From Candidatus Dormiibacterota bacterium (lineage in GTDB: Bacteria; Chloroflexota; Dormibacteria; Aeolococcales; Bog-877): 61,589 bases of DNA. A model generated the notes under the pieces. That model saw nothing but the letters and a program-made list of their open reading frames with translations. It had not been told where the DNA came from and did not search any database. How positions within the stretch are numbered: position 1 is the first letter of the stretch; each line of letters opens with the position of its first letter. The stretch covers positions 1-61,589 of the forward strand of contig DAHUZI010000133.1 in the NCBI GenBank assembly GCA_027306595.1, in the 5' to 3' direction. Below, piece after piece: positions 1-14,941 of this stretch. A program made the translations under genes and the position numbers.

Positions 1-103
1 CCAGGAGAATGCCCGGGCGCTCTGACGGCAGAGGCGCCTTCAGTGGGATCCGCTCCAGGAGCGGTCCAACTGGCGCGGCGTGGGCCCCGACTGCCATGGC
101 AGC

Positions 104-976
104 TCAGGGCTGCGGCGCCACGTCGGCCCGGAGGGCGGCCAGCTGCTCCGGCCTCGCGCGGACTAGGGGGGTCAGGAGTGGCACGGTCTGCAGGCCGATC
201 AGGAACTCATCGGGGGCGCCGGCCGCAAACCAGGGGAACCCGCGTGGCCAATCCGGCGACCGCGGGCCCAGCGCGACCACCTGCGCCGCATCGCGCAGCT
301 CGGCGTCGGTCGCTCCCGCCACTAGCGCGGCGAGCTGACCAAGGAGCTCCGCGAAGGCTTCGATGGCAAGCCATGCCTCGGCCGGGCGCCCGTGGACGGT
401 CCATTCAGCGAGCCCGAAGGCCCCCTCGAGCTCCATGGCGTCCCCGAGCTCGATCGGGGGACCGGCAGCCCCGAACGCCGCTCGGCGCAGTTCGCCCAGG
501 TCCTCGCGCACGCTGTCGAGAAGCTCCTCGGCGTCTGGAGGGTTGCCGGTGGCGAGGTCTGGATGGGTCGGAGCCCAGGCCCTGAGATTCCTGCGCAGCA
601 TCGGCAGGAGCGGGGCGAGGCCGTCCGCCTCCCCGCCGGCCGCGGCCCAGCTGGCCGCCTTGACCCAGCCGTCAACCCATGCCGCGCGGTAGGTCGGGAC
701 CGGCACCATCAGGCCCCGGCCGAACAAAATCAGGGGCGCCCAGGGGAGGCCGCGACGGTTGCGCGCGAGCCTCGACCAGGCCGCGAGGACCTCCGCCGTC
801 CCGGTCCCGTACTGAGACCCCCACCCCTTGCCCGTGCCCCGCCCAGGCCGGCGGTGGGGGACAAGGGCTAGCTCACGGGCTCGCCGAAGCTGCCGCAGCG
901 TCACCGAGGCGCCGAGCGCCCGCACCTCGTCGAGCACTGCGGCCTCAGCCGCGGACGGGTCCGGGCTGCCTCGCAC
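104..976 (-). CDS. hypothetical protein (accessory element)
   Basis: Long ORF at left edge, divergent from the 1.0-5.1 kb operon; no recognisable domain. Confidence 0.5.
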   Translation of the reverse strand: MRGSPDPSAAEAAVLDEVRALGASVTLRQLRRARELALVPHRRPGRGTGKGWGSQYGTGTAEVLAAWSRLARNRRGLPWAPLILFGRGLMVPVPTYRAAWVDGWVKAASWAAAGGEADGLAPLLPMLRRNLRAWAPTHPDLATGNPPDAEELLDSVREDLGELRRAAFGAAGPPIELGDAMELEGAFGLAEWTVHGRPAEAWLAIEAFAELLGQLAALVAGATDAELRDAAQVVALGPRSPDWPRGFPWFAAGAPDEFLIGLQTVPLLTPLVRARPEQLAALRADVAPQP

Positions 977-1042
977 TCCCCGATTCTAGTACTCCCCGTG
1001 TCGAGGCACAAGTGGCCGAGGAGGCGGGTGTGGAATGCCCGC

Positions 1043-1258
1043 ATGACGTCCCGAACCGTCCGGCTCACCGCCGATGAAATCGGAGTCCTCCGGTCCGCGG
1101 CCGCGCGCCGAGCATGCACTCCTGAGCGCGTTCTCCTCGAGGAGATCGTCGAGGTCGCCGACAAGATGGTGCAGAACCTCGCCGCCGCGGACCTCCGGCG
1201 TCTTCGGGCGTTGCGTCGAAAGCTGGCGGCATCGGATTGGGGACGCACCAGTGCCTGA
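1043..1258 (+). CDS. small hypothetical protein (MTSRTVRLTADEIGVLRSAA...)
   Basis: ORF 998..1258, probably starting at the internal ATG; overlaps the next ORF. Confidence 0.45.
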   Translation: MTSRTVRLTADEIGVLRSAAARRACTPERVLLEEIVEVADKMVQNLAAADLRRLRALRRKLAASDWGRTSA

Positions 1259-1439
1259 GCCCCGAGAGCCGATGGAGCTGCCTCTCCCCCCCGACCTTCG
1301 CCGCGTCCTCCGCGGCCTCGGGAACCACGGCCCTGCCAGCCGGGTCTTTCGGGGGCTAGAGGGCACGTTGCAGCGAGCGGCGGTCGAGGCCGTCCGCCGT
1401 CTGCGCACTACCAACGCGCCGCGAGAGCCACGACGGTGA
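1251..1439 (+). CDS. small hypothetical protein (VPEPREPMELPLPPDLRRVLRGLG...)
   Basis: GTG start at 1251; ends in GTGA overlap with the downstream regulator start at 1436. Confidence 0.4.
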   Translation: MPEPREPMELPLPPDLRRVLRGLGNHGPASRVFRGLEGTLQRAAVEAVRRLRTTNAPREPRR

Positions 1440-1732
1440 GCTTCGCATTCGACCGCGACCGCTTCGCTGCGGCACTCCTCGCTCGGGGCCTCGGGCACGC
1501 CGACGTCGCCCGCCTGGCTGGGATCGCCACCTCGACCGTGGCGGCAGCCGCCTCCGGCCGGCCGGTCGCACCCGGAACGGCCCGGCGCCTCGCGGCCGCC
1601 CTGGCCAAGACCCCTGAGCTGGAGCTGATGGCGACGCTCGTCGGCCCGGCCACAAACGGCGAAGCCACCGCCCCTCAAGCGGTGGCTTCGCACATGGAGG
1701 CGCTCAGTGCACGAGCCGCTCCACGCGCATAG
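1436..1732 (+). CDS. Xre/Cro-CI-like helix-turn-helix regulator
   Basis: Protein ...RGLGHADVARLAGIATSTVAAAASGRPVAPGTARRLAAAL... is a Xre-type HTH pattern. Confidence 0.65.
   Translation: MSFAFDRDRFAAALLARGLGHADVARLAGIATSTVAAAASGRPVAPGTARRLAAALAKTPELELMATLVGPATNGEATAPQAVASHMEALSARAAPRA
1659..1691 (+). promoter_or_regulatory. Perfect 13-bp hairpin immediately upstream of the Rep ribosome-binding site
   Basis: GCGAAGCCACCGC-CCCTCAA-GCGGTGGCTTCGC, 4 nt before GGAGG (1696-1700) and the GTG start at 1707. Confidence 0.6.
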
Positions 1733-4112
1733 CATAGCGGACCCCGCGCAGACGGGCAGGGGGCCGCGGTCCAGCGCCGCCCTATATCGCCGTCTCGCGG
1801 GCACTCTGGCCCGCGGCTTCCTCAACGGGAACCAGGCGCACCTGGGGCTGATCGCTAACGCGACCCGCCGCCTGGCGGGGCTCGGCCTGGGCGGCGATGA
1901 GACGGCAGGCGCCGTGATCCGGGCCATATCGGAAATCCTGAAGGATGGGGGGCCCTTCACGGAGGAGGAGCTCTCCCGGCGTTCGAACGTCGACCACAAG
2001 AGGCTCGCGCGCCTGCGCCGGAACGGGCGCGAGATGGGCGCGCTCGAGCCGCTTGTCGAGGAGGTCCTCGCGCGGGCCACGCGGACCATCCCGGTGCCAA
2101 GGGTCGCTGGGTCGACCCCGCGGACAGCTGGCGGACGCGATGCGGCGAGTGACCTGGTCGCCCTGGCCCGAGCCGATGGCGTCGAGACGTTTACTTATCA
2201 GGGGGACCCGTACGTCAGCCTGCACGTGAATGGGCACGTCGAGACGCACCCGTTGGGGCTAAGGAGCCCGGCCCTCCGTGACTACCTCCTGCGGCTGTAC
2301 CGGTCGCGCCACGCCCGCTTGCCGGGGAGGGAAGCGGTCGCGGGGGCTGTGGAGGCGCTCGCCGCGGATGCCCGCTGTGGCGAAGTGGAGCACGCCGTGT
2401 TCCTGCGCGTCGGCGCTCTCCCGGATGGCCGCATCGCGATCGACCGCGGTGATGCCAGCTGGACCGCGATCGTGGTCGGGGCGGCTGGCTGGGAGGTGGT
2501 CCCTCACCCGGTCCGGTTCCGCCGACCACGCTCACTTCTGAGCCTGCCGATGCCGGAGGGTGGGGGCTCGATCGATGAGCTTTGGGCCTTCCTCAACTTG
2601 GGCTCGCCCTCGGACCGCTATCTCGTCATGGTGTGGCTGGTGGCGGCGCTGCGCCCGGTCGGCCCGTATGGGGTGCTGCTCTTCCACGGGGAGGCGGGCA
2701 CAGCCAAGAGCACGGCCACGAAGATCTGCCGATCGCTTGTGGACCCCTCAACGGCGCCGATGCGCCACCTGCCAAAGGACATCCGCGACCTTTTCGTCGC
2801 GGCGCGCGCGAACCGGTGCCTGGCGTTCGACAACGTGAGCGCGATCCCGCGCGAGACGAGCGATGCGATCTGCCAGATCGCCTCCGGCGGCGGCTACGCC
2901 ACGCGCGAGCTCTACTCCGATAACGACGAGGTCGTTCTCACTGCCCAGCGACCGGTGATCATCACGTCAGTCGAGGAGGTGGCACGCTCGGGCGACCTCC
3001 TCGAGCGCTCCCTCCTGGTCGAGCTGCACCCGATCTCACCGGAGAATCGCCGAACAGAGAAGCGCCTCTGGCGGGACTTCGAGCAGGCGCGCCCAAGGCT
3101 GCTTGGCTCGCTCTTGGACCTTGTCGCGAGCACCGAGCGCGAGCTGCCAGGGGTCGAGATCGCAGCGCCGCCGAGGATGGCCGACTTCGCGGAACTCGGG
3201 GTAGCGGTCGAGCGAGCCAAGGGATGGCCTGATGGGGCCTTCCTTAGGGCGCTCGAGGGGAGCGCCCTTGAGGCGGCCGATACGGCACTCGGCGGGTACC
3301 CCATCGTCCCGACCCTCGTGAAGTTCGCCAGCGAGGTCGACAGGAGAGAGCCCCCGGCATGGGTCGGATCCGCGGCTGAGCTCCTCGACGAGCTCACTAG
3401 CCTCTCGGGGAAGGGTCCCGAGGATCTCCGCCGCCTCCGTGACTGGCCCCCGAACCCAGGCTGGCTCGGCCGTCAGCTCGTCCGGATCGGACCCGACCTT
3501 CGGAAGGTCCACGGGGTGGACCTTCAGTCGGTGCGGCGAAGCCGAGATGCGAAGCGCTGGAGAGTCGCGCGCGTAAAGGGGGGGAATTTGCTGGCACTGC
3601 CGGCACTGCCGGCACCTTCGACTTCAAATGCTGCCGTTTCGGGTGCCGGCAAGGGGTCTCCGGGTGCCGGCAAGGGGTCTCCGGTGCCGGCAACGGTGCC
3701 GCCTTCGACCGGAGCCCCTGGCAGCGATCGGCTGGCAACGAGTGCCGGCAGTGCCGGCAGTGTGCCGGCATTCGCGGCGCTTGCCGGCACCCCTGATGCT
3801 CATCTTTCTGATCTCTTACCCGGTGCGGGTGCCGGCAGTGCCGGCATTTTCCCCTCTTTTGGGGAGAAAGAGGAAGAAGGGAACGGCTACCAGAGCCTGA
3901 AGCTCACAGCCTCCGAAGCGGAAGAGGGGGTCGGCGCAGCTCTGGTGGCCGCCGAGTCGATCGAGGACCTGAACCAGATCGTGATCGAGTTCCAGGAGAC
4001 GATCGTCGCGCTCCCGCTCGGTGCGCGGCGGCGGGTGCGCGCCGTCTACCTCGCCCACCGCGATCGGCTCGTTGGCCGTGCGGCGGCTGGCGGCCCGGAC
4101 GTGACCCCGTGA
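1707..4112 (+). CDS. Rep/helicase-like P-loop ATPase (phage/ICE replication protein type)
   Basis: 801 aa; Walker A GEAGTAKST in LLFHGEAGTAKSTATKICRSLVDP, followed by RCLAFDNVS and SLLVELHPI motifs as in SF3-like replication proteins; SD GGAGG 6 nt before GTG. Confidence 0.7.
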   Translation: MHEPLHAHSIADPAQTGRGPRSSAALYRRLAGTLARGFLNGNQAHLGLIANATRRLAGLGLGGDETAGAVIRAISEILKDGGPFTEEELSRRSNVDHKRLARLRRNGREMGALEPLVEEVLARATRTIPVPRVAGSTPRTAGGRDAASDLVALARADGVETFTYQGDPYVSLHVNGHVETHPLGLRSPALRDYLLRLYRSRHARLPGREAVAGAVEALAADARCGEVEHAVFLRVGALPDGRIAIDRGDASWTAIVVGAAGWEVVPHPVRFRRPRSLLSLPMPEGGGSIDELWAFLNLGSPSDRYLVMVWLVAALRPVGPYGVLLFHGEAGTAKSTATKICRSLVDPSTAPMRHLPKDIRDLFVAARANRCLAFDNVSAIPRETSDAICQIASGGGYATRELYSDNDEVVLTAQRPVIITSVEEVARSGDLLERSLLVELHPISPENRRTEKRLWRDFEQARPRLLGSLLDLVASTERELPGVEIAAPPRMADFAELGVAVERAKGWPDGAFLRALEGSALEAADTALGGYPIVPTLVKFASEVDRREPPAWVGSAAELLDELTSLSGKGPEDLRRLRDWPPNPGWLGRQLVRIGPDLRKVHGVDLQSVRRSRDAKRWRVARVKGGNLLALPALPAPSTSNAAVSGAGKGSPGAGKGSPVPATVPPSTGAPGSDRLATSAGSAGSVPAFAALAGTPDAHLSDLLPGAGAGSAGIFPSFGEKEEEGNGYQSLKLTASEAEEGVGAALVAAESIEDLNQIVIEFQETIVALPLGARRRVRAVYLAHRDRLVGRAAAGGPDVTP
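3598..3846. repeat. Iteron-like cluster: 11 copies of palindrome TGCCGGCA
   Basis: Exact copies start at 3598, 3607, 3644, 3665, 3685, 3743, 3752, 3763, 3782, 3830, 3839; three adjacent pairs are exactly 9 bp apart. Confidence 0.85.
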
Positions 4113-4741
4113 TCTCCGCGACGCCGGCAGCCCCGAGCTACGTGCTGGTCGACCACCCTGCCTACGTCCGGGACCGCCGCGCCCGGAGAGCGGCGCTCCT
4201 CACGATCCGCCGCCAGGTCCGGCGCCCCGGGGTCTACGACTGGACGTGGCATCACGATGCCGGCCGCGCGTGCTGCCGGCGGGAGGCGCCGTCCATCACG
4301 GCGCAGTGGATCGTGGCCCAGCTCCGGCTCGATGGGGTGTGGGCCCGGGCCGCCCTGGTGAGGGGCGATTCGCTGGCGGCCAGCGCCCTCCGGTCGGCAG
4401 GCGGCGCGGTCGGCGTCGTGGGAGGGCCGGTCGGCGAGTCGCTGGGTCGGATCGCGCTCGCCGTCGCCGGGGGCGCCATCGAATGCTGCCCCCATCTGGG
4501 GGTGGGCGACGAGTTCCGGGCCGTGTGGCTTCGCGACCTCGACCGGGCCCGGTGCGCCGGCTGCCACGCCGGCCGCACCCGAGCGATCGTCGGCACGCCC
4601 GAGGGCTCGACGTGTGACGGCTGCCGCCGGGCGGCGGAGGTGCTGCGGCCGTTCGTGATGATGGCCGGACCGCTGACGGTCTTCGGCGACATCTGCGAGA
4701 GGTGCTCGGGGGGATCGCGCGTCACGGTGATCGTCGAGTGA
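4109..4741 (+). CDS. CxxC-rich hypothetical protein
   Basis: 210 aa with CAGC, CDGC and CERC motifs; GTGA overlap with the Rep stop. Confidence 0.6.
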   Translation: MISATPAAPSYVLVDHPAYVRDRRARRAALLTIRRQVRRPGVYDWTWHHDAGRACCRREAPSITAQWIVAQLRLDGVWARAALVRGDSLAASALRSAGGAVGVVGGPVGESLGRIALAVAGGAIECCPHLGVGDEFRAVWLRDLDRARCAGCHAGRTRAIVGTPEGSTCDGCRRAAEVLRPFVMMAGPLTVFGDICERCSGGSRVTVIVE

Positions 4742-5070
4742 CCGCCGAGCTCGCCCAGATCCCGCCCGGGTTCGTCCGAGGCGAGTCCGGGGACACGGCA
4801 AAGCTGCCACCGGGTTGGGGCGCCTGCCGGTTCTGTGGAGACCGGGTTCGCCGCCCCGAACGAATCTGTCAGCTGTGCCTCGCCGAGGCGGCCGGCCTCC
4901 GGGTCCACGCCGGCCCCGCGATCCGCCTCACCGGGAGCGTTGACCTGGTCCCGCTCGTCGCGCCCCGTCGGCAGCCCCGGGAGGTCCTTGAGGCCCGCGC
5001 CCCTCATGGCGAGGGCGGCCAGCGGGCGGCGGTCCGATACGGCGTCCGGGCCCCTCGGAGTCGACGGTGA
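4738..5070 (+). CDS. small zinc-finger protein (PPGWGACRFCGDRV...CQLC)
   Basis: GTGA overlap with the upstream gene; CxxC...CxLC motif shared with 8905..9357. Confidence 0.55.
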   Translation: MTAELAQIPPGFVRGESGDTAKLPPGWGACRFCGDRVRRPERICQLCLAEAAGLRVHAGPAIRLTGSVDLVPLVAPRRQPREVLEARAPHGEGGQRAAVRYGVRAPRSRR

Positions 5071-5290
5071 GGACGTCGAGCGGCCCCGGCGCCGCCCGCG
5101 CCCGTGAGGCCGTCGCTTGGGATGCGGAGCCCCGCGCCCGGGCCGCACGCATGGCGGCGGACCGCCGCGGTGCCCGCGGCTCCGTGTCCCGCGGCGCCGC
5201 CCCCGACTTGGGCGGCGTCCGCGCGGCGTGGGACCCGCTCCAGCCGGCCAAGCCGGTATCGGGATGCTGAGCGGGCGGCGCGATGCGGGC

Positions 5291-5539
5291 ATGGCTCGGC
5301 CCTACTGGGTGGCCGTCTGGCTCTGGAGCATTGATGGCCACTCCCAGCGGCAGATCGCGGAGGTGCTCCACCTCTCGCGGCAATCCGTGCGGTACTACCT
5401 CGCCAAGGGGCGCCCCGACGGCATCCGCCCTGGCGGAGGTGGGCGCAATCGGTGGGCGCAAAGTGGCCGGATCGCGCCCACCGATTGCGCCCACTCGCGC
5501 CAGGGCGGAGAACGTGATCCCACTTGTCGGGAGGCGCCC
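5291..5539 (+). CDS. Resolvase-type HTH peptide; 3' end and reading frame uncertain
   Basis: MARPYWVAVWLWSIDGHSQRQIAEVLHLSRQSVRYYLAKGRP; open reading frame runs into a 35-bp inverted repeat and on in frame into the next ORF. Confidence 0.4.
5425..5508. repeat. 35-bp near-perfect inverted repeat with 14-nt loop
   Basis: Left arm 5425-5459, right arm 5474-5508; innermost 21 bp perfect (GTGGGCGCAATCGGTGGGCGC), outer 11 bp perfect, 3-nt mismatch bubble. Confidence 0.9.
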
Positions 5540-5989
5540 ATGACCACCACCACCAGCGCCACGATTGAGCGGGCGCGCGCGTACCTGCGCAACCTCGACC
5601 CGGGCCGCACGATGGACGCGGCCGAGCTCCGCCGGCGGGTGGGGCGACAGTTCCCCGCGCTCTGGCCCAAACTCACGCCCTCCTTGCAGGCTGCCTGGGC
5701 CTGGCGCCAGGCCCACGGCCGGACCCCAGAGCTGGCGTGGCGCGAGCCCAGCCGCCCTCCTGACAGCGGACTCTTCGACGGCGTCCGGGTCCCGCGGGAG
5801 GAACGGACGCGGGCCCAGGCGGTGCACGCGCTCGAGGCTCGGCTGCGGGCGCGGCAGCGGCACCTCGCCGCCGCTCAGCGCGAGGCCGCGCGAACCAGGG
5901 CACTGGCCGCGTGGTGGCGGGCGGCGCACGGCGACCGGCTCGAGCTCCCCCTCGACCTCGCCGAGGAGGCGTGGTATGGGCACCGTTGA
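5540..5989 (+). CDS. hypothetical protein (MTTTTSATIERARAYLRNLDPGRTMDAAELRRRVG...)
   Basis: SD GGGAGG 5 nt before ATG; overlaps resolvase start by 14 nt. Confidence 0.5.
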   Translation: MTTTTSATIERARAYLRNLDPGRTMDAAELRRRVGRQFPALWPKLTPSLQAAWAWRQAHGRTPELAWREPSRPPDSGLFDGVRVPREERTRAQAVHALEARLRARQRHLAAAQREAARTRALAAWWRAAHGDRLELPLDLAEEAWYGHR

Positions 5990-6605
5990 GGCGCCGGCGC
6001 CCCGGGCTGCGCTGTGGCTTCGGGTCTCGACCGCGGAGCAGGTGGCCGCGAACCAGGAGCCGGCCCTGCGGGCCCTCGCCGAGCGCCGAGGCTGGGCGGT
6101 CGGCCCCGTCTACCGGCTCGAGGAGTCGGCGTTCGCGGGTGGCGAGGCGTACCGGCGGGCGGTGACCCAGCTGGTCCGCGACGGCCGGCTGGGGCGGTTC
6201 ACGGTGCTCCTAGTGTGGGCCCTCGACCGGCTCTCCCGGGAGGGACCGCTGGCCACCCTGGGGCTGGTGGACCAGCTGGCCCGCGCCGGCGTCACGGTCG
6301 TCTCGGCTCAGGAGCCGTGGACCGAGGCGCCCGGCGAGCTCCGGGAGCTGCTCCTCGCCATCGTCGCCTGGGTGGCGCGCCAGGAGTCGGCGCGTCGGTC
6401 GGAGCGGGTCCGCGCCGGGCTGGCGCGGGCCCGGGCCGCAGGAACGCGGCTGGGGCGACCGCCGGGGAGCCGGGACGGCCACCAGCGCCGGCGGTCGGGG
6501 TACTTCGCGCGGTGGGCCCGGGTCCGGGAGGACGGCCCTAAACAATCCCCAGGGCGGGAAGAGCCCTCCGCGGATCTCGGCCCGGGCACCCCCGGCGCGG
6601 GGTGA
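5976..6605 (+). CDS. Serine recombinase/resolvase family protein
   Basis: Catalytic-domain motifs LRVSTAEQ, ...LLVWALDRLSREG..., EQ/ER helix region and C-terminal RAGLARARAAGTRLGRPPGSRD. Confidence 0.85.
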   Translation: MGTVEAPAPRAALWLRVSTAEQVAANQEPALRALAERRGWAVGPVYRLEESAFAGGEAYRRAVTQLVRDGRLGRFTVLLVWALDRLSREGPLATLGLVDQLARAGVTVVSAQEPWTEAPGELRELLLAIVAWVARQESARRSERVRAGLARARAAGTRLGRPPGSRDGHQRRRSGYFARWARVREDGPKQSPGREEPSADLGPGTPGAG

Positions 6606-6623
6606 ACAATCGGAGGGTTATTC
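6604..6623. promoter_or_regulatory. Candidate operator dyad A (GAACAA-N8-TTATTC)
   Basis: Similar dyad with the same N8 spacing at 7457-7476. Confidence 0.35.
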
Positions 6624-6804
6624 GGGGCTGGGCCTAGACGATGCGGCGGTCCCGCCACGAAAGCCAGCCTCCGCCGGCCCCGGTTCGCCCCTCGCAACCC
6701 GGCGAAGTGCTGGCGCTCAAGGAGCCCACGGCCTGGCCGCGCCGCGGATGCAGCGCACGCCGAGGGTGCCACCGGCGGCGACCTGACCATCGCCCCGGGA
6801 GGAG

Positions 6805-7437
6805 TCAACCGTGGTCGTCAGGATCGGGAAGCGCGCGCCCTTCGGCGACCGACGCGTTGCGCACCTCCTCGCGCATGCAGTCGATCACGCGCTGGCGCGA
6901 TGCGAGGAGGGCGCCTCCGTCGTCCGTGGCCCTCTGGAGGGCCTCCGGGAACGCCTCGGTCCCGTGCGATGCCCTCAGGGATCCGCGACTCGACAAGTAC
7001 ACCCAGACCGCCTGGTCGAAGTCACGGAGCGCGTCCCACAGCCGCACGCTCCCAACGAGCGCAACGAGGGCCTGCGCTTCGTAGTCGATGCTGTCGGGGT
7101 CCGGCTGTTGGCTGGGAGGGTCGATCCGGGACCGGTCCTTCCTCAGAGCCCACTCGACCTGTCGGCCCCAGTGATTCACGTGACGTGTCACCGCCAGGTA
7201 GGCGTCGAGCCTTCGCTTGCGGAAGGCGGCGGCGTGCCGCTCTGAGGTGTCGTGACGGCGGTCGGCCGCGGCGGCTTCGGCCCGTGCCTGGCGCTCGGCG
7301 GCGCCTTCGCTGGCCTGGGCGGTGATGGTCCTCGCGGTCACCCTGTAGGTGATGAACCCGGTCACGGCTGAGGCGATCACTGCGGCCCCCGCCGCCTCGA
7401 GTCCTGCCAAGAGTTCCAGCATGCCATCGGTGATCAT
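6805..7437 (-). CDS. membrane-anchored hypothetical protein
   Basis: MITDGMLELLAGLEAAGAAVIASAVTGFITYRV N-terminal TM, then charged coiled region. Confidence 0.55.
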   Translation of the reverse strand: MITDGMLELLAGLEAAGAAVIASAVTGFITYRVTARTITAQASEGAAERQARAEAAAADRRHDTSERHAAAFRKRRLDAYLAVTRHVNHWGRQVEWALRKDRSRIDPPSQQPDPDSIDYEAQALVALVGSVRLWDALRDFDQAVWVYLSSRGSLRASHGTEAFPEALQRATDDGGALLASRQRVIDCMREEVRNASVAEGRALPDPDDHG

Positions 7438-7456
7438 CGTCCCCCGAGGCGTTGCC

Positions 7457-7476
7457 AAACAACCCGCCCATTGTTT
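7457..7476. promoter_or_regulatory. Candidate operator dyad B (AAACAA-N8-TTGTTT) in a divergent intergenic region
   Basis: Perfect 6-bp inverted repeat with 8-bp spacer between divergent genes. Confidence 0.45.
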
Positions 7477-7523
7477 ATCTCGGGCGAGCGACAGGCTTTC
7501 CTCTCGGCCAGATCGCGCGTAGG

Positions 7524-7793
7524 ATGGCGGCGATGCCGCCGCCCGACCTTCCGCCACTTCGAGCGCCCAGCCGGTCGCGGCTGCAGCGAGTGGGCGAGCT
7601 GCTCCCCCGGGTTGCCCGAGGGATCCGCCAAGGGACGACCGCGATGGAGCGGGCCGAGCGGCAAGGGGAAGGCAACCTCTGGGAGCTAGTGCGGATCGGG
7701 ATGGGGACGGCTCGCGCCGCCATCCACCGCACCGATCCCGACGTCGAGGGTGACGGGCGCTCCGGGGTGCCGGCGGCGACGGAGGGGCACTGA
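7524..7793 (+). CDS. small hypothetical protein
   Basis: 3' part of ORF 7452..7793 (MAAMPPPDLPPLRAPSRSRLQ...); start site uncertain. Confidence 0.4.
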   Translation: MAAMPPPDLPPLRAPSRSRLQRVGELLPRVARGIRQGTTAMERAERQGEGNLWELVRIGMGTARAAIHRTDPDVEGDGRSGVPAATEGH

Positions 7794-7794
7794 G

Positions 7795-7902
7795 ATGGCC
7801 GTGCCACTGTCGACCGCGCAGCTGGAGGCGGTGGGGACCGCCGCGGGCGGACGCCCGCCCGTGGTCCTGTTTGTCGCCTTTGGCGGCTGGCGGCAACGGT
7901 AG
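7795..7902 (+). CDS. 35-aa small ORF (MAVPLSTAQLEAVGTAAGGRPPVVLFVAFGGWRQR)
   Basis: Stop overlaps the GTG start of the downstream lysin-like gene (TAGTG). Confidence 0.35.
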   Translation: MAVPLSTAQLEAVGTAAGGRPPVVLFVAFGGWRQR

Positions 7903-8891
7903 TGGCCAGCCAGACCCAGATCGCGGACTTCCGCACCAAGTACCTACCCTGGGCGGCGAAGGCGTCGCGGTCCACCGGGCTCAACCAGTGGACGATCCTC
8001 AGCCAGTGGGCGAACGAGACCAACTACGGGACCCAGTTCGCCCGGCCCAACAACATCGGCAACATTGGCGTCTACCCGGGCGGTCCCAACCCCGCCTACG
8101 CCAGCGTCGGCGCCGGGGTGAAGGCGTACGAATCCTTCATCACCTCCTCCACCGCTCCGGGGATGGCCGCCCTGCGCGCGACCCGCGGGCAGAGCATCGC
8201 TGAGCAGTTCCGCGCGCTCGGGAACTCCGCCTACGCGGGCAGCCACTACAACAGCGGCGGCGGCCCTGGCTCCGCCCTGGCCGGCGTCCTGGCCGCCCTC
8301 AATCCGACCGTGAGCCCGGGCGCGGCGAGCAGTCCGCCGGGCGCTGGGGTCCAGCTCCCCACGACGATCCGGCTGGCAGGGCCGGCCGTTGTGAGCTGGT
8401 TCGAGCACCTCACGGCAGCCCAGCAGCGCGCGGCCTCTGACCTCTCGCTCCCGAAGGGGTCGCACGTGCTGAGCGTGAAGTGGCCGGGGCTGAGGTCGAC
8501 GACTGCGGAGATCACCTACCTCACGGCCGCCGGCAAGAAGGTCACCACGGAGTTCCTGACCGTCCCGCCCGGCAGCGTGAACCTGAAGGGTGCAAAGAAT
8601 CCGCTGTGGGGACCGACCCCAACACAGACGACGGGCGCCGCGCACAAGGCAGCCAAGACGGCGGGGAACATCGCGGGTGCGGTAGGGGCCCTGGTCAGCT
8701 TCCTCACCGAGTTCGCCGGCGGACTCACCCTTGAGCGTGTCGGGATGGCGCTACTCGCCTTCGCCATGGTCGCAGGGGGCCTTCTGCTCCTGGTGACGGG
8801 GAGCCAGTCAAAGTCGCTCGGCCGCAGCCTGCAGCCGGCGGACGCCGCGGCGAGCGGCGCGCAGTCCGCCGCGGCCGCCCTAGCCGACTGA
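7902..8891 (+). CDS. Glucosaminidase/lysozyme-like protein with C-terminal TM segment
   Basis: STGLNQWTILSQWANETNYGT...NNIGNIGVYPGG...YESFITSS domain; C-terminal MALLAFAMVAGGLLLLVTG hydrophobic helix. Confidence 0.6.
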   Translation: MASQTQIADFRTKYLPWAAKASRSTGLNQWTILSQWANETNYGTQFARPNNIGNIGVYPGGPNPAYASVGAGVKAYESFITSSTAPGMAALRATRGQSIAEQFRALGNSAYAGSHYNSGGGPGSALAGVLAALNPTVSPGAASSPPGAGVQLPTTIRLAGPAVVSWFEHLTAAQQRAASDLSLPKGSHVLSVKWPGLRSTTAEITYLTAAGKKVTTEFLTVPPGSVNLKGAKNPLWGPTPTQTTGAAHKAAKTAGNIAGAVGALVSFLTEFAGGLTLERVGMALLAFAMVAGGLLLLVTGSQSKSLGRSLQPADAAASGAQSAAAALAD

Positions 8892-8904
8892 CCGCGGCGC
8901 CGGC

Positions 8905-9357
8905 GTGCGCTTCCCGCGCCTGCTTCGTCGCCGGATCTCATCGCCGCCCCCCTCGACGACGCGCGCTCCGCGAACGCCCCGTCGGCAGCTCCCCGCTCCC
9001 GCGTTCTCGGGGCAGCCGGCCGACCGGCCCCTGCATTCCTGCCTGCCGCCGGGTTGGGCGCCGTGCATCCGGTGTGATCTCGGCGTTCCGGTGGGCACCA
9101 GCCTCTGCGCGCTCTGCGCTCGCGAGCTCCGGGGCCTCCGGCTGCCGTCGCCAACACCCCTTCTGGGACTCGACCTGGTCGAGGTGCCAGGCCCCACCGT
9201 GCGCGCCGCCGCCTTCCGCCACCACACCCGGGCGCTGCCCCGGCCCGCGGCCACCCGCACGGTGCCGACCCCGCCGCCCTCGATGACCCCGGCGGTCCTG
9301 CCAGACCCTGGCATCGGTCCGAGGCGGGAGCTCGCGGCACCGCCGCCGGGAGCGTAG
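8905..9357 (+). CDS. zinc-finger protein paralogous to 4738..5070
   Basis: LPPGWAPCIRCDLGVPVGTSLCALCARELRGLRL resembles PPGWGACRFCGDRVRRPERICQLCLAEAAGLRV. Confidence 0.5.
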   Translation: MRFPRLLRRRISSPPPSTTRAPRTPRRQLPAPAFSGQPADRPLHSCLPPGWAPCIRCDLGVPVGTSLCALCARELRGLRLPSPTPLLGLDLVEVPGPTVRAAAFRHHTRALPRPAATRTVPTPPPSMTPAVLPDPGIGPRRELAAPPPGA

Positions 9358-9490
9358 GCAGCGCACCCGGCGCCTCGCCACGGGCGTCGGGGTCACGCCG
9401 GCGCCCGCCCCGACGCTCAGTGGCGTCGACGCTCGACGGGACAGCCGCCAGATCGCGTCCTGACCCAGCTGGGTCCCCTATCCGCTGCCT

Positions 9491-9850
9491 CCAGCACCCT
9501 CGCGCGCCGCCACGGCCCGCACAGGGGCGATATATCGCCTTCATGGGTTCCGCCGAGGAACCCGAAGGCGCTGATCCGGTGGCCCAGGGGGTTGACGTCG
9601 CGGCCGGGTCGGTCACCCCCTACTCGGTCGCCCCTGCGCCTGGGTCGCCCGGCTGCACGCCGCGGCCAGCCGCCGCTGCCACGGGCTCGCCGGCGCCGGG
9701 GCTGCCCCCGGCGGTCGGTGTCCACGCCGCCCGACTGGCGTCCGGCCCTCCCCCTCCCTGGGGACCACCGCCAGCCCGGTCCGACGAGACCACCGGTGGG
9801 TACCCTGGCGGTCGGCGTCTCCGCAGGAGTCGGCGGCGCGGCGGTGGGGC
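9491..9850. repeat. Direct repeat copy 1 (about 360 bp, partner 10794-11153)
   Basis: Ungapped alignment at offset +1303; contains palindrome GGCGATATATCGCC at 9526-9539. Confidence 0.85.
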
Positions 9851-10140
9851 CCGACCTGGTCGTGGCGCCGGGCCCCCCCGTCCGCGACGACGGCTTTGCC
9901 ACCAGCCGCGGGCGCGGCTCCGGCCCGCGGTGATCCGCACGGTGCGGGCTTTGCGTGGCCCGGCGCGCCCGGGCGGCCTGGTCGGCCCCGACATCGGTCC
10001 GGGACGCGGGCTCGCGGCCAGGCCCGCCGGGGCGGAGGCAGCGCGCCCGGTGTGTTGGCCCGCGCGCCGGGTTCCTCCCCGGCGCCAGTCCCCGCGGTCG
10101 CCCCCTTCGACGCTCGAGAGGCAGGGGGGGCACTCGTCAG

Positions 10141-10228
10141 CCAATCTCGGCCAGCAACCCAAGGTCCCGCACCAGCTGACCGAGGCTGGATTCGGTCAGC
10201 GAGAACCCCGCCAGATCGCGCCCTGAGC
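10141..10228 (-). pseudogene. Fragment of tyrosine recombinase gene related to 13734..14708
   Basis: RC encodes RDLAGFSLTESSLGQLVRDLGLLAEIG, matching RDPAGERHALTESGVGQLVRDLGLRAEIG of the intact integrase; aligns to about 13933-14020. Confidence 0.8.
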
Positions 10229-10288
10229 CGGCTGGGGCCCTCGCCCTGCGGGGGGGCCACCGGACCACCGCCGGTCCCTCCTGGCGCC

Positions 10289-10404
10289 GTGACGGTCGTG
10301 ACGGTCGGTGACGGTCGGCCGCCCTCCGACCGTCACACCGGAATCCCCATCTTTGGAACTCGCCCCCGGGGGTCTGGAGGGGGTCAGTGACGGTCGTGAC
10401 GGTC
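10289..10404. repeat. Second iteron-like cluster: 6 copies of GTGACGGTC (5 direct, 1 inverted)
   Basis: Copies at 10289, 10298, 10308, 10328 (inverted, GACCGTCAC), 10387, 10396; two pairs exactly 9 bp apart. Confidence 0.85.
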
Positions 10405-10409
10405 GTTTC

Positions 10410-10793
10410 CCCTCTATAGAGGGAAGGAGGAGGAAGGAGAAGAGAGCCCAGGGCACTTCAGTACACCGCTCGCGCCGGACGTCCTTGCGCGCGGGATGGT
10501 CGCCTGGATCTCGGCGCCGGGTCCCCCGAGGCCTTCCGGAGGGTGACGGCCGAGATCCCCACCCAGCTCGGCGAGCTCGCGCCCGTCGCGCCGCGGCGGG
10601 TGCGCGCCGTCGAGCTCACCCACCGCGGCCGGCTCCTCGGCAGCGGGGTGGTCGACGGGTTGGGCATGGCCCCGTGCCCCCCGCCACCCCGACATTCCAG
10701 ACCCGCGTCGTGGTCGACCACCGTGCCTGCCTCCGGGACCGCCGCGTCCAGAGAGCGGCGCTCCTCGCGATCCGCCGTCAGGTTCGGCGACCC
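10410..10793 (+). pseudogene. Decayed copy of the Rep C-terminus and start of the following CxxC gene
   Basis: RRVRAVELTHRGRLLG matches RRVRAVYLAHRDRLVG of 1707..4112; VVVDHRACLRDRRVQRAALLAIRRQVRR matches VLVDHPAYVRDRRARRAALLTIRRQVRR of 4109..4741, with the same relative frame shift. Confidence 0.8.
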
Positions 10794-11153
10794 CCAGCAC
10801 CCCCGCGCGCCGCCACGGCCCGCACAGTGGCGATATATCGCCCCCATGGGGTCCGCCGAGAAACCCGAAGGCGCTGATCCGGTGGCCCAGGGGGTTGACG
10901 TCGCGGCCGGGTTGGTCACCCCCTACCCGGTCGCCCCTACGCCTGGGTCGCCCAGCTCCACGCCGCGGCGAGCCGCCGCCGCCACGGGCTCGCCGGCGCC
11001 GGCGCCGACCCCGGCGGTCGGTGCCCACGCTGGCCGACCGGCGTCCGGCCCTCTCCCTCCGTGGGGACCATCCCCAGCCCGGTCCGACGGGACCACCGGT
11101 GGGCGGCCTGGCGGTCGGCGTCTCCGCAGTAGACGGCGTCGCGGCGGCGGTCG
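10794..11153. repeat. Direct repeat copy 2 (about 360 bp, partner 9491-9850)
   Basis: Ungapped alignment at offset 1303; palindrome GGCGATATATCGCC at 10829-10842. Confidence 0.85.
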
Positions 11154-11203
11154 ACGAGCGGGACTCCGCACCAGCGACACGTCGACGTCCGCGGGCGGGG
11201 CAT
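10937..11203 (-). CDS. small zinc-finger-like protein (CRWCGVPLVDRRRDAVYCGDADRQAAHRWSRR)
   Basis: CxxC...YCxxxxRQAAxRW signature common in actinobacterial/Chloroflexota mobile elements. Confidence 0.5.
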   Translation of the reverse strand: MPRPRTSTCRWCGVPLVDRRRDAVYCGDADRQAAHRWSRRTGLGMVPTEGEGRTPVGQRGHRPPGSAPAPASPWRRRLAAAWSWATQA

Positions 11204-11269
11204 GGGGACGACGATAGTCCAAGAGGAGGCGGGCGGCAGACCTTTGGCCTCGCGCGTGCGTGAGGCGCT

Positions 11270-12091
11270 GTGTCACGGATGAACCTTCCGCTTGATCTCA
11301 GGAAGCTACGCGCACGCGCGCGCGGGAGAGGGCGGCGGATCGGGGCCCGCGGCTCGGCGCCGGCCGGTCGGACACCACGCGCGGCCCCGATCGGTCAGCA
11401 TGGGGCGAGCGCGCCGACGGGTCGGCGCGTTGCCCGGTGGAGGGATCGCGTGACGGTACTCGCCGCTCGCAGCCGGGAGCTGGGCGCGAGGACGGACGCC
11501 CAGGTCCTGGCCGTCGTGGATGCCGCTGGGCTGGCCGGCATCGAGCCGGCCCACCTGTTCGCGCGCGCCGGGCTCGACCCTCGGCGCGGGCGGCGGAGCG
11601 TCGCGCGCTTGGTCGCTCGCGGACGTGTGGTCCGGTCGAGCGCGCGGGGACGCTGCTTCTCGGCGGCGGCAACGCCGACATCCCCGCTGCGCCTCCCTCC
11701 CGGAACCAGGGCAACGCTCCCGGGCCCCGCTGGCGACCAAGGGGTCGCGCTCGCGGAGCTGATGGCCCTCCAGGGGCTCGACCCTCACGCGTGCTGGGTG
11801 CGGATGCAACAGCTCGGGCTCGTCCGGTGGTCGGTGCCGCCCGGCGGCGGCGCAGTCCCGACGCCAGGGACTCCGCGGCTCAGCGACTACCGCTGGCTCG
11901 ACGAGGGAAACCGCCTCGTCGATCCGAGCCAGGCCCCGATGATTCTGCGGCGAGCGATCCGCCAGTGCCAGGCGCCGGAGCGGGCCGCGAGGGCGGCGCC
12001 CCGCCGGGCCGGCCATGCCCAACGGACGCCTTCGTCGCCCACGCCGGGGCGCTGGGCCCGGTTCCGGGACTGGCTCCAGGCCCCGCCCTGA
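11270..12091 (+). CDS. hypothetical protein with winged-helix-like stretch
   Basis: 273 aa; LFARAGLDPRRGRRSVARLVARGRVVRSSARGRCF. Confidence 0.45.
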   Translation: MSRMNLPLDLRKLRARARGRGRRIGARGSAPAGRTPRAAPIGQHGASAPTGRRVARWRDRVTVLAARSRELGARTDAQVLAVVDAAGLAGIEPAHLFARAGLDPRRGRRSVARLVARGRVVRSSARGRCFSAAATPTSPLRLPPGTRATLPGPAGDQGVALAELMALQGLDPHACWVRMQQLGLVRWSVPPGGGAVPTPGTPRLSDYRWLDEGNRLVDPSQAPMILRRAIRQCQAPERAARAAPRRAGHAQRTPSSPTPGRWARFRDWLQAPP

Positions 12092-12425
12092 GGCAGCGTC
12101 GCGGGATGGGCGCGAGGCACCCCAGCGCGTCGTCCGTGTCGCCGTGGTCCAGGAGGAAGGTCCGCGGCGCGGGCCAGGGCCGCTCGGGGGCCGCTCCGTC
12201 GAGCAGATCCTCGACCTCCGGGTGGACCACGCTGGCGAAGATGGCCAGGCCGCCGACCGGCTCCGGCACCGTCTCGGCCCATCCCCGCCCGCACCGCCGG
12301 CAGGTCCGCGCCACCAGCTCCGGGCCCGGGACCGCCTCCACGTCGGGGTAGTCGCAGGTCGGGCACCGGCTCCAAGGGTCGAAGGGCTCAGGCGGGTCGA
12401 CCAGCTGGGCCTGGACCGCACTCAC
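11880..12425 (-). CDS. zinc-ribbon hypothetical protein
   Basis: CPTCDYPDVEAVPGPELVARTCRRCGRGW; 4-nt overlap with the start-side integrase gene; 3' end overlaps 11270..12091 antisense. Confidence 0.4.
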   Translation of the reverse strand: MSAVQAQLVDPPEPFDPWSRCPTCDYPDVEAVPGPELVARTCRRCGRGWAETVPEPVGGLAIFASVVHPEVEDLLDGAAPERPWPAPRTFLLDHGDTDDALGCLAPIPRRCLRAGPGASPGTGPSAPAWATKASVGHGRPGGAPPSRPAPAPGTGGSLAAESSGPGSDRRGGFPRRASGSR

Positions 12426-13576
12426 GGCCTCACCCCCGGCCTCTGGTGGTTGGCCGATCCGAGGCTGAGCGGGGCGATGGCCGCGCGCAGCTCGTCAAGC
12501 GCCAGGTGGTCGAGGTACCGCTGGGTGTGGGTGAGGCTGGAGTGGCCGAGCAGCTGCATGACCGCAACAGGGGAGGCCCCGGCCCGCAAGTTCCGTATGG
12601 CGTACGTGTGTCGCAGCGAGTGCGGCGAGATCCGCTTGGTGACCCCCGCCGCCGAGAGCCACCCGCGCAGTCGGCAGCTGATCCCAGCCGGAGTGAGGCG
12701 GCCTCGGGGATGCGCCCGGTCCCGCCTCAGGAACAGCGGACCCGAACTCTGGAGCGTCCGACCGTCCGCTGCGAGCATCGCGAGCATGGCGTCGCCCACT
12801 TCGGCGCGAACGGGAACCACTCGGTCCTTGGCGCCCTTGCCCTGGCGGACGTGCAGGGCCACGCCGCCGGCGCCGTCGCCCACGATGTCGGCGACGTCGA
12901 GGTGGCTCAGCTCACCGACGCGGAGGCCACTCCCGAGCGCGACCATCGCCAGCGCCAGATCGGCGGGTCCGCGGGCCTGCGCTGCGGCCAGGACCGCCGC
13001 CAGCTCCGGCGCGTCGAGGGCGGAATAGGGGCGGATGACGGTCGCTTTCGGCACGCGCAGAACCTCGTCGACGATGTCCCGGCCCAGCTGGTGGGCGCCG
13101 ATCGCCCGCGTCCACTTCAGGCAGGCCCGGACCGCGTGGATCGCGCTGGCGCGGCTCCCGGGCGCGAGGTGCGCCTGCGCCAGGACGTGGCCGCGGTAGT
13201 GAGCGAGCAGCTCGCCACTGAGCATCCCGAAGGCCGGCACCTCGACGAAGGCGAAGAAGGCCCGGAGGTGGCGACCGTAGACGCGCCGGGTCGCCGGCGA
13301 CTCGACCCGGCTGTCGAGCCACGCGTCGACCACCCGCGTCCACGGAAGGGTGGCGGCAGGGGGGATCGGCGGCACCGGGGTCAGGGCCTCGACCAGGTCG
13401 GCGATGTCCTGCCCCGCGGGCGGCCTCGCCGTGACGGCCGTACTCAGCCAGGCGGGCATGGGCGATCCGGACCCGGGCGGGGGCGCCTGGCTCACCGCCC
13501 CCACCGATCCGCTCACGGCTTCGCCCCGGCGGCGGTCAACGGCCGCAGCCGCGAGCGGAGGCCCGGTGCGGCCCAC
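12422..13576 (-). CDS. Tyrosine recombinase/integrase 1
   Basis: GSGLRVGELSHLDVADI, HSLRHTYAIRNLRAGASPVAVMQLLGHSSLTHTQRYLDHL catalytic boxes. Confidence 0.9.
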   Translation of the reverse strand: MGRTGPPLAAAAVDRRRGEAVSGSVGAVSQAPPPGSGSPMPAWLSTAVTARPPAGQDIADLVEALTPVPPIPPAATLPWTRVVDAWLDSRVESPATRRVYGRHLRAFFAFVEVPAFGMLSGELLAHYRGHVLAQAHLAPGSRASAIHAVRACLKWTRAIGAHQLGRDIVDEVLRVPKATVIRPYSALDAPELAAVLAAAQARGPADLALAMVALGSGLRVGELSHLDVADIVGDGAGGVALHVRQGKGAKDRVVPVRAEVGDAMLAMLAADGRTLQSSGPLFLRRDRAHPRGRLTPAGISCRLRGWLSAAGVTKRISPHSLRHTYAIRNLRAGASPVAVMQLLGHSSLTHTQRYLDHLALDELRAAIAPLSLGSANHQRPGVRP

Positions 13577-13733
13577 GTGAGAGGGGGCCGGACCGCCCCG
13601 GCGGCGCGGGAGGGGGGCGCCCCGCTTAGCCAGCGCGCCGCGGGCGCCGTCAGGATCGCGTCGGCCAGCGGGTCCGAGCGCCAGGTCAGGGGATGGCGAA
13701 GCACGGTCTCCTCCTCACAACCGCTGCGGGTGA

Positions 13734-14708
13734 TCAGCGCCCCCCGTCATCCGCGCGCAGGGCGTCCATGAGGGCGCGGTGGGCATCGGTCGGGGTCAGG
13801 TGGGCGTAGGTGCGCTGGATCATCTGCAGGGACGAGTGGCCGAGGACCTGCGCCACCAGGAGCGGGTTCATGCCGCGCTGGAGCAGGTATGTGGCGGCCG
13901 AATGGCGAAAGAGGTGGGGGTGCACTCGCCGGCCGATCTCGGCCCGCAGCCCGAGGTCCCGCACCAGCTGACCGACGCCGGATTCGGTCAGGGCGTGGCG
14001 CTCGCCAGCGGGATCGCGACGGCGCGCCGTGAACAGCCGATCAGTCACCACGTCGGCGCCCCCCGGGATCTGCCCAAAGCGTCGCAGGCGTCGCGCGAGG
14101 GCCGGGGCGAGCGGCACCAGCCGATCGCGGTTCCCCTTCCCGTGGACGAGCATGTACGTCTCGCGGTCCCGCTGCACCAGGTCGTCGAGCCGAAAGCGCA
14201 CCAGCTCTCCGACCCGGACGCCTGTGTCCGCCAGCACGCGCACGATCAGCTTGTCCCGTTCGTCTCGCGCCGCTCCCTCGAGCCGCTGGACCTCCTCTCG
14301 GCTCAACACGTCGACCACGCGCCGGCCCAGCCGCGGGAGCCGGACGTCCCCCTCGACTCGTTCCCCCTCGGCCCGCAGCCAGGCCAGGAGGCCTCGGACC
14401 GCCTTCACGTAGGTCCAGATCGACGACTCGCTGAGCGGGCCCCGGGCGCCGCCCGCGGTGCGGAGATGCGCGGCATAGCGCTCGAGGACGCGACTCGACA
14501 GCCCCGCGAGGTCGGTCAGACCCTCCCGCTCCGCCCAGGGGAGAAAGACCGAACGGAGCGGGTAGCCGTAGCTGAGGGTCACCGTCTTGGGCGAAAGGCC
14601 ACGGGCCTGGCAGGCGGTCAGGTAGTCCTCGACCGCCTGGCCGAGCGGCGCAGGGCGACCCCGGGCGGACTTGGCCGAGGGCGACCGGGAAGAGGAGTTC
14701 CTGCGCAA
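13734..14708 (-). CDS. Tyrosine recombinase/integrase 2 (XerD-like), adjacent to tRNA-Thr
   Basis: TGVRVGELVRFRLDDL, HPHLFRHSAATYLLQRGMNPLLVAQVLGHSSLQMIQRTYAHL. Confidence 0.92.
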   Translation of the reverse strand: MRRNSSSRSPSAKSARGRPAPLGQAVEDYLTACQARGLSPKTVTLSYGYPLRSVFLPWAEREGLTDLAGLSSRVLERYAAHLRTAGGARGPLSESSIWTYVKAVRGLLAWLRAEGERVEGDVRLPRLGRRVVDVLSREEVQRLEGAARDERDKLIVRVLADTGVRVGELVRFRLDDLVQRDRETYMLVHGKGNRDRLVPLAPALARRLRRFGQIPGGADVVTDRLFTARRRDPAGERHALTESGVGQLVRDLGLRAEIGRRVHPHLFRHSAATYLLQRGMNPLLVAQVLGHSSLQMIQRTYAHLTPTDAHRALMDALRADDGGR

Positions 14709-14869
14709 CGACTCTCACCTGGGTTGGGGACTATCCCGCTGTGTTAGAGCGTTACCATACCACATCTGTCCAGGAGTCCCCAGAACTCCCCAACGCCCGC
14801 CGCTCGTCGCCATCCATTCACGACTGTGAGATCGAAAAGATGGGAACGGCGCATCTCGGGGAAGGCCCG

Positions 14870-14941
14870 AGCCCAGACCGGGATTTGAACCCGGGACCCC
14901 TTCCTTACCAAGGAAGTGCTCTGCCACTGAGCTATCTGGGC
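14870..14941 (-). tRNA. tRNA-Thr(GGT)
   Basis: GCCCAGA acceptor, CTTCC-TTGGTAA-GGAAG anticodon arm, CCGGG-TTCAAAT-CCCGG T arm. Confidence 0.95.

Follow-up and report, generated by a model that had tools for sequence, protein, structure and literature searches.

How an initiator and its whole set of binding sites can change together while replication is kept is an old question, since one protein has to match many sites. It is raised in a concrete form by a stretch of 61,589 nucleotides from a Candidatus Dormiibacterota bacterium (contig DAHUZI010000133.1; hereafter the window), in which an origin-like module at 10289-10793 lies about 6.5 kb downstream of an intact first origin and carries a different iteron. 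The initial annotation had seen in this pair a changed Rep binding code with the architecture kept. We asked what the second site is, how it relates to the first, and how far that reading holds.

The first site is built around an intact rep gene (1707..4112, plus strand) that encodes an 801-aa protein with a C-terminal winged helix and an iteron-encoded tail. Sequence searches of Pfam, PHROGs, NCBIfam and the PDB gave no useful match, and the Pfam search found no initiator domain of the Rep_3 type, unlike in the Rep_3, TrfA and Pi iteron plasmids. An AlphaFold model computed from a 43-member alignment reached a pLDDT of 93 over 472 residues and ended in a high-confidence winged helix at residues 374-463 (3303..3572, plus strand) with the element order H-E-H-H-H-E-E (helices 374-386, 397-408, 412-416 and 425-443; strands 393-395, 445-450 and 458-463); the modeled S2-wing-S3 hairpin is encoded at 3516-3572 on the same strand. 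The best solved folds in a Foldseek search were the poxvirus D5/E5, phage NrS-1 and SaPI5 primase-helicases, with E-values down to 1e-7, and on this model the protein is assigned to the SF3/D5-type helicases, the TM-scores near 0.4 placing the kinship at the level of the fold rather than of close relatives. Eleven perfect GTGCCGGCA iterons follow directly after the winged helix, still inside the gene, from 3598 (minus) to 3838 (plus), so that the origin spans 3598..3846 and is bordered by a T/C-rich element, TTTTCCCCTCTTTTGGGGAGAAAG, at 3847..3870 (plus strand). The next gene of the operon, an open reading frame at 4109..4741 (plus strand), encodes a 210-aa product; across 399 genomes of the phylum, its only more than marginal matches were the first-site copy itself and the second site.

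At the second site, we found the six iterons, five direct and one inverted, exactly where they had been placed. Six perfect copies of GTGACGGTC are spread over 116 bp: a block of three direct copies at 10289, 10298 and 10308 (10289..10316), an inverted copy, GACCGTCAC, at 10328..10336 on the minus strand, and a terminal head-to-tail pair at 10387 and 10396 (10387..10404). Single-base composition predicts 0.0013 copies in 125 bp, counting both strands, and under it a six-copy cluster has a probability of about 1e-20. The double iteron GTGACGGTCGTGACGGTC occurs twice in the source genome and in none of the 398 other genomes of the phylum. The tract GTTTCCCCTCTATAGAGGGAAGG stands directly after the iterons, and the T/C element to which it belongs, GTTTCCCCTCTATAGAGGGAAGGA (10405..10428, plus strand), abuts the last of them. 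Further right are a remnant of the Rep C-terminal tail (10567..10674, plus strand) and one of the 5' end of the next gene (10674..10793, plus strand), the latter cut at the start of the second copy of a 360-bp direct repeat (10791..11150, 91% identical to 9488-9847), which truncates the site on the right.

The similarity of this remainder to the first site, described earlier as homology to the Rep C-terminus and the next gene, proved stronger than had been stated. Positions 10568-10793 align without gaps to 4003-4228 over 226 bp with 78% identity (E = 2e-46), and a global alignment of the stretch from the T/C tract to this conserved block scored 43, compared with a mean of -33 and a maximum of 3 for shuffled sequences. 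The spacer from the inverted iteron to the terminal pair can also be aligned between the sites (p = 0.0035 against shuffles). The match is stronger still in that each of the six iterons has a counterpart in position and orientation: the direct copies of the first block pair with those at 3742, 3751 and 3762, the inverted copy with 3782 (minus) and the terminal pair with 3829 and 3838, giving offsets of 0, 9, 19, 39 (minus), 98 and 107 at the second site and of 0, 9, 20, 40 (minus), 87 and 96 at the first. The evidence thus supports two homologous origin modules of the same architecture. Within the six pairs, iteron positions 1-3 and 5-7 are the same in every case, while 4, 8 and 9 always differ. 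This identical, six-fold difference at three positions is a concerted change of a repeated site.

At the same time, the second site is no working replicon but a pseudogene fragment. An unfiltered HMM search of the window detected no other Rep helicase or winged-helix sequence, confirming that the Rep N-terminus is missing there; of a complete Rep, only the tail fragment is left, making the site a relic of an SF3/D5-type Rep-ori replicon rather than a member of that class. The Rep reading frame has two stops in the iteron region and none in 10567-10674. Differences from the first site are distributed over the three codon positions as 9/12/7 (Rep tail) and 8/9/6, with no excess at third positions; together with the stops, this lack of bias marks the site as a relic. 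What remains is the right-hand part of an origin together with pieces of the Rep tail and of the following gene, and the left, minus-strand arm of the canonical iteron layout is absent.

To place the two iterons in a wider context, we collected 194 distinct Reps from genomes of the phylum, from one genome per prokaryotic species, and from viral contigs, plasmids and one phage. Its members come from many bacterial phyla and from some archaea, and no Pfam or NCBIfam model describes the family, the 43 members tested giving at most weak matches (to AAA or VapE models). We searched for clustered 9-mers in the 1.3 kb that follow the helicase domain and used an equal length of upstream coding sequence as control. 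Arrays were strongly enriched beside rep (182 loci compared with 177 coding controls; Mann-Whitney p = 3e-18), and 36% of the loci exceeded the control maximum. The widespread form is a 9-bp iteron, N[TG]GACG[GCA][TA]N, with mismatches within arrays falling mostly on position 9, less often on 7, 1 and 8 and rarely on 2-5. The GTG-n-CGG that the initial annotation had noted in both 9-mers is indeed common to them, but it is the general core of this large family and not specific to the pair. The second site carries the family-typical iteron, and the GTGCCGGCA of the first site is the unusual one. Its last eight bases, TGCCGGCA, form a perfect palindrome (3643-3846), such that its orientation is set by the outer G alone; iterons of the family are otherwise asymmetric. 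One Planctomycetota MAG (L171) gave the identical GTGCCGGCA word with weak support.

GTGACGGTC arrays next to a full-length Rep, for which the initial annotation had proposed to search, do exist in two relatives, one on a viral contig (L065/L132) and one in an Acidobacteria MAG (L142). Scanning viral contigs for GTGACGGTCGTGACGGTC gave 33 loci, with a recognizable family Rep in one (L065) and a single tandem pair in most of the others; a scan of the viral contigs with a single protein (P0001) gave no match. On L065, a second GTGACGGTC array is found at 1352-1414, beyond an HNH-like gene and some 0.9 kb downstream of the rep-tail array. A different type is seen in L187, L206, L402, L113/L114 and L185, some of them proteobacterial, which have GTGAAC-type iterons and a different wing (e.g., VDxKPKxDGVHC). 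The iterons of phage P4 resemble GGTGAACAG and are like the GTGAAC iterons of several proteobacterial members, a likeness that we treat as a lead only.

Origins inside genes are familiar from phage lambda O. Among 116 confident loci of the Rep family, the iterons lie mostly inside rep in 66% and wholly outside in 19%. Arrays face outward, as the first iteron is on the minus strand in 79% and the last on the plus strand in 86% of 77 loci. A T/C-rich motif, gTTTcCCc.CcTTTTctg, abuts the free 3' end of the terminal iteron with an information content of 5.7 bits, compared with 1.8 bits at control offsets; the EM run was restricted to free iteron ends, since neighboring iterons had confounded a wider one. 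The T/C element of the relic, held out of training, scored 7.6, a value reached at 18 of 123,130 window positions, and that of the first site 11.1 (3 of 123,130), the latter having been part of the training set. The tract that had been noted as mirrored at the two sites is thus the family-wide T/C element. Many Reps have repetitive tails (SDA, ADG, VTV) encoded by the iterons, as might be expected if the repeats were low-complexity coding sequence or else transcription-factor sites with no part in replication. We regard this as very improbable: the arrays extend beyond the stop codon or are entirely external to rep in 19% of the confident loci, they occupy both strands with conserved polarity, and a conserved element abuts them. 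The out-of-gene arrays, the polarity and the T/C element make selection at the protein level an unlikely source of the repeats.

If the two words reflect a changed binding code, the iteron should vary with the DNA-binding region of the Rep. Because mutual information computed column by column produced noisy peaks, we turned to a partial-Mantel window scan across 96 nonredundant Reps, in which window divergence was compared with iteron divergence after removing the divergence of the rest of the protein. The best window was 20-39 residues after the WPK motif, corresponding to the S2-wing-S3 hairpin in the model, with correlations of 0.24 for iteron positions 1-8 and 0.36 for positions 4-6 (p over all windows 0.001, within a range of 0.001-0.008; about 0.002 for core identity at positions 4-6); a second peak covered helices 1-2 of the winged helix. 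As the permutation of iterons is not fully free of shared ancestry, these p-values are indicative only. The wing association persisted when loci with iterons overlapping the wing codons were left out and among Reps below 55% identity, and it was weaker without the AAC group (p = 0.03-0.04). The flanking positions 1, 2, 7 and 8 showed no association with any Rep region in the ACG-core set (p = 0.5-0.8), and position 4 alone gave no wing signal (p = 0.08, with the best window elsewhere). A lack of correlation between iteron and DNA-binding region in full-length relatives had been named beforehand as grounds for giving up the changed code; the correlation was found, at the wing. The proposal of a changed code with kept architecture is accordingly borne out by the homologous modules, the concerted switch and the family-level correlation, but not for this pair as such, because the DNA-binding domain cognate to the second site is gone and a change in binding cannot be shown. 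The two words differ at positions 4, 8 and 9, so the family-level result lends plausibility to a changed code here but does not demonstrate it.

The surroundings bear on how the two sites came to share one region. Similarity to one genome of the same genus sets in at 14864, at the 3' end of a minus-strand tRNA-Thr gene (14869-14941), and given this stop of synteny, positions 1-14863 of the window look like a mobile island. We found no duplicate of the tRNA-Thr end in the window that could act as an attachment site; elsewhere in the assembly, it matched only a tRNA-Leu gene. The Rep is found in 1 of 110 genomes of the class, the source genome itself. A serine recombinase gene at 5565-6605 (Resolvase N-terminal domain, E = 3e-26) is a candidate for the island integrase or a resolvase, and an 86-bp near-palindrome at 5424-5509 (84% self-complementary) separates it from the first operon. 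The segment 9164-11150 contains a tandem duplication of three parts: 9164-9436 and 9845-10117 (72%), 9445-9477 and 10208-10240 (88%), and 9488-9847 and 10791-11150 (91%). The relic origin stands between the second and third parts and in the second copy only; its cut at 10793 by the 360-bp repeat places it in the second copy of the duplicated stretch. A 76-bp direct repeat (88%) occurs just upstream of the relic (10124-10199) and near the island end (13916-13991).

We consider it highly probable that 10289-10793 is the surviving right-hand origin part of a second, related mobile element that shared an island with the intact first one. In the intact system, the Rep would act as a self-loading SF3 (D5-type) helicase, its C-terminal winged helix binding 9-bp iterons that lie within the 3' part of the rep gene itself. 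A pair of outward-facing iteron groups would position two helicase assemblies, and the T/C-rich element beside each terminal iteron, the proposed strand-opening site, would be opened for helicase entry. The lineage of the relic would have used the family-typical GTGACGGTC and the first element GTGCCGGCA, and the first-site Rep would no longer read the relic. From the second element, the helicase and the winged helix, the left side of the array and the bulk of the next gene would later have disappeared, leaving a remainder no longer under coding constraint.

The same pair might have arisen within one lineage, by a local duplication of the 3' end of the first element and a subsequent concerted change of one array, through drift resembling gene conversion, so that both words were the product of a single lineage. 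The 6.5 kb between the sites within one island, the direct duplications in the region (9164-9847 vs. 9845-11150) and a next gene with no strong match elsewhere in 399 genomes of the phylum all suit such a duplication, which nevertheless strikes us as rather unlikely: the flank has diverged by 22%, the spacers contain indels, and the iteron word of the relic is that of unrelated full-length Reps. Given these three observations, a separate element is the simpler explanation, though the data only partly distinguish the two.

The state of the iterons suggests that the second site may be of more recent date, or of more use, than an ordinary relic, as six perfect copies exceed what neutral drift easily leaves: their probability in a decaying region is 0.0017 if half of the flank divergence falls on the relic branch and 0.045 if a quarter does. 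Since the coding sequence has decayed while all six iterons and the adjoining T/C element are intact, the site might be a functional orphan origin, retained as a decoy or incompatibility locus or as a passenger whose replication is driven in trans by a Rep that reads GTGACGGTC; the interference of ectopic phage lambda origin copies with lambda proliferation has been a subject of study (PMC4488673). We judge this improbable, as the canonical layout lacks its left arm here, the source assembly (76% complete) contains one Rep and none cognate to the second site, and recent decay could alone account for the perfect iterons. Slightly more doubtful is the further idea that selection keeps the site as a chromosomal decoy, titrating or parasitizing the Rep of incoming GTGACGGTC elements, and that the resident element escaped through its switch to GTGCCGGCA.

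The remnant of a second element, as we prefer to read the site, has parallels among known replicons. Homologues of the first-site rep are found on plasmids including the Streptomyces theta plasmid pFP11 (NC_006911), where the helicase gene is 35% identical over 76% of the query and GGGACGCAC iterons lie 0.56-0.8 kb downstream, arranged around a T/C-rich gap. Their GACG core is shared with the second site, and the first site has GCCG in its place. The RepA of pFP11 is reported to bind its iterons (PMC3583192) and is presumably the product of the homologous gene found here, which would give the family an experimental foothold. Unlike the integrated relic, pFP11 is a free replicon with its iterons downstream of rep and a separate primase-polymerase gene preceding it. 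The first-site Rep resembles the Rep-ori modules of SaPI/PICI elements in its D5/SF3-type helicase fold (SaPI5 primase-helicase, 7ola) and in its iteron origin, placed at or beside the 3' terminus of rep, as in SF3/D5-type Rep-ori replicons. In SaPIs, the C-terminal domain of Rep binds the downstream iteron origin (PMC7581432), and in SaPI/PICI elements the origin, with two iteron sets, is located at the rep 3' end or shortly beyond it (PMC7581432; PMC6092414). A profile search gave no sequence match, and, unlike in SaPIs, the iterons are usually inside rep here and no Rep accompanies the second site. Phage P4 alpha likewise combines a helicase, a C-terminal winged-helix origin-binding domain and origin repeats (PMC4234260), but it carries a bacterial-type primase domain, a possible difference from the first-site Rep. 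In the Vibrio PLE RepA/ori, the DNA-binding domain of the initiator and the iterons covary and are exchanged as modules (PMC8263062); the covariation is similar, whereas the initiator is an unrelated RepA_N protein and the iterons are semipalindromes of about 30 bp.

Helicase-plus-iteron origins, origins inside genes and the covariation of initiator and iterons (PLE; PMC8263062) were thus known. As far as the literature searched shows, the breadth of the Rep family, its regular in-rep origin, the iteron grammar with its T/C element and the snapshot of a concerted switch are new. The pair of sites is such a snapshot, six corresponding iterons differing by one three-letter change. That this class of Rep commonly hides its origin inside its own gene aids the finding of origins in unannotated integrative elements. 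The approximately 190 Reps without a curated family model form a natural library of iteron words and cognate winged helices, and the family makes the joint change of initiator and iterons testable, with the wing as the first place to look.
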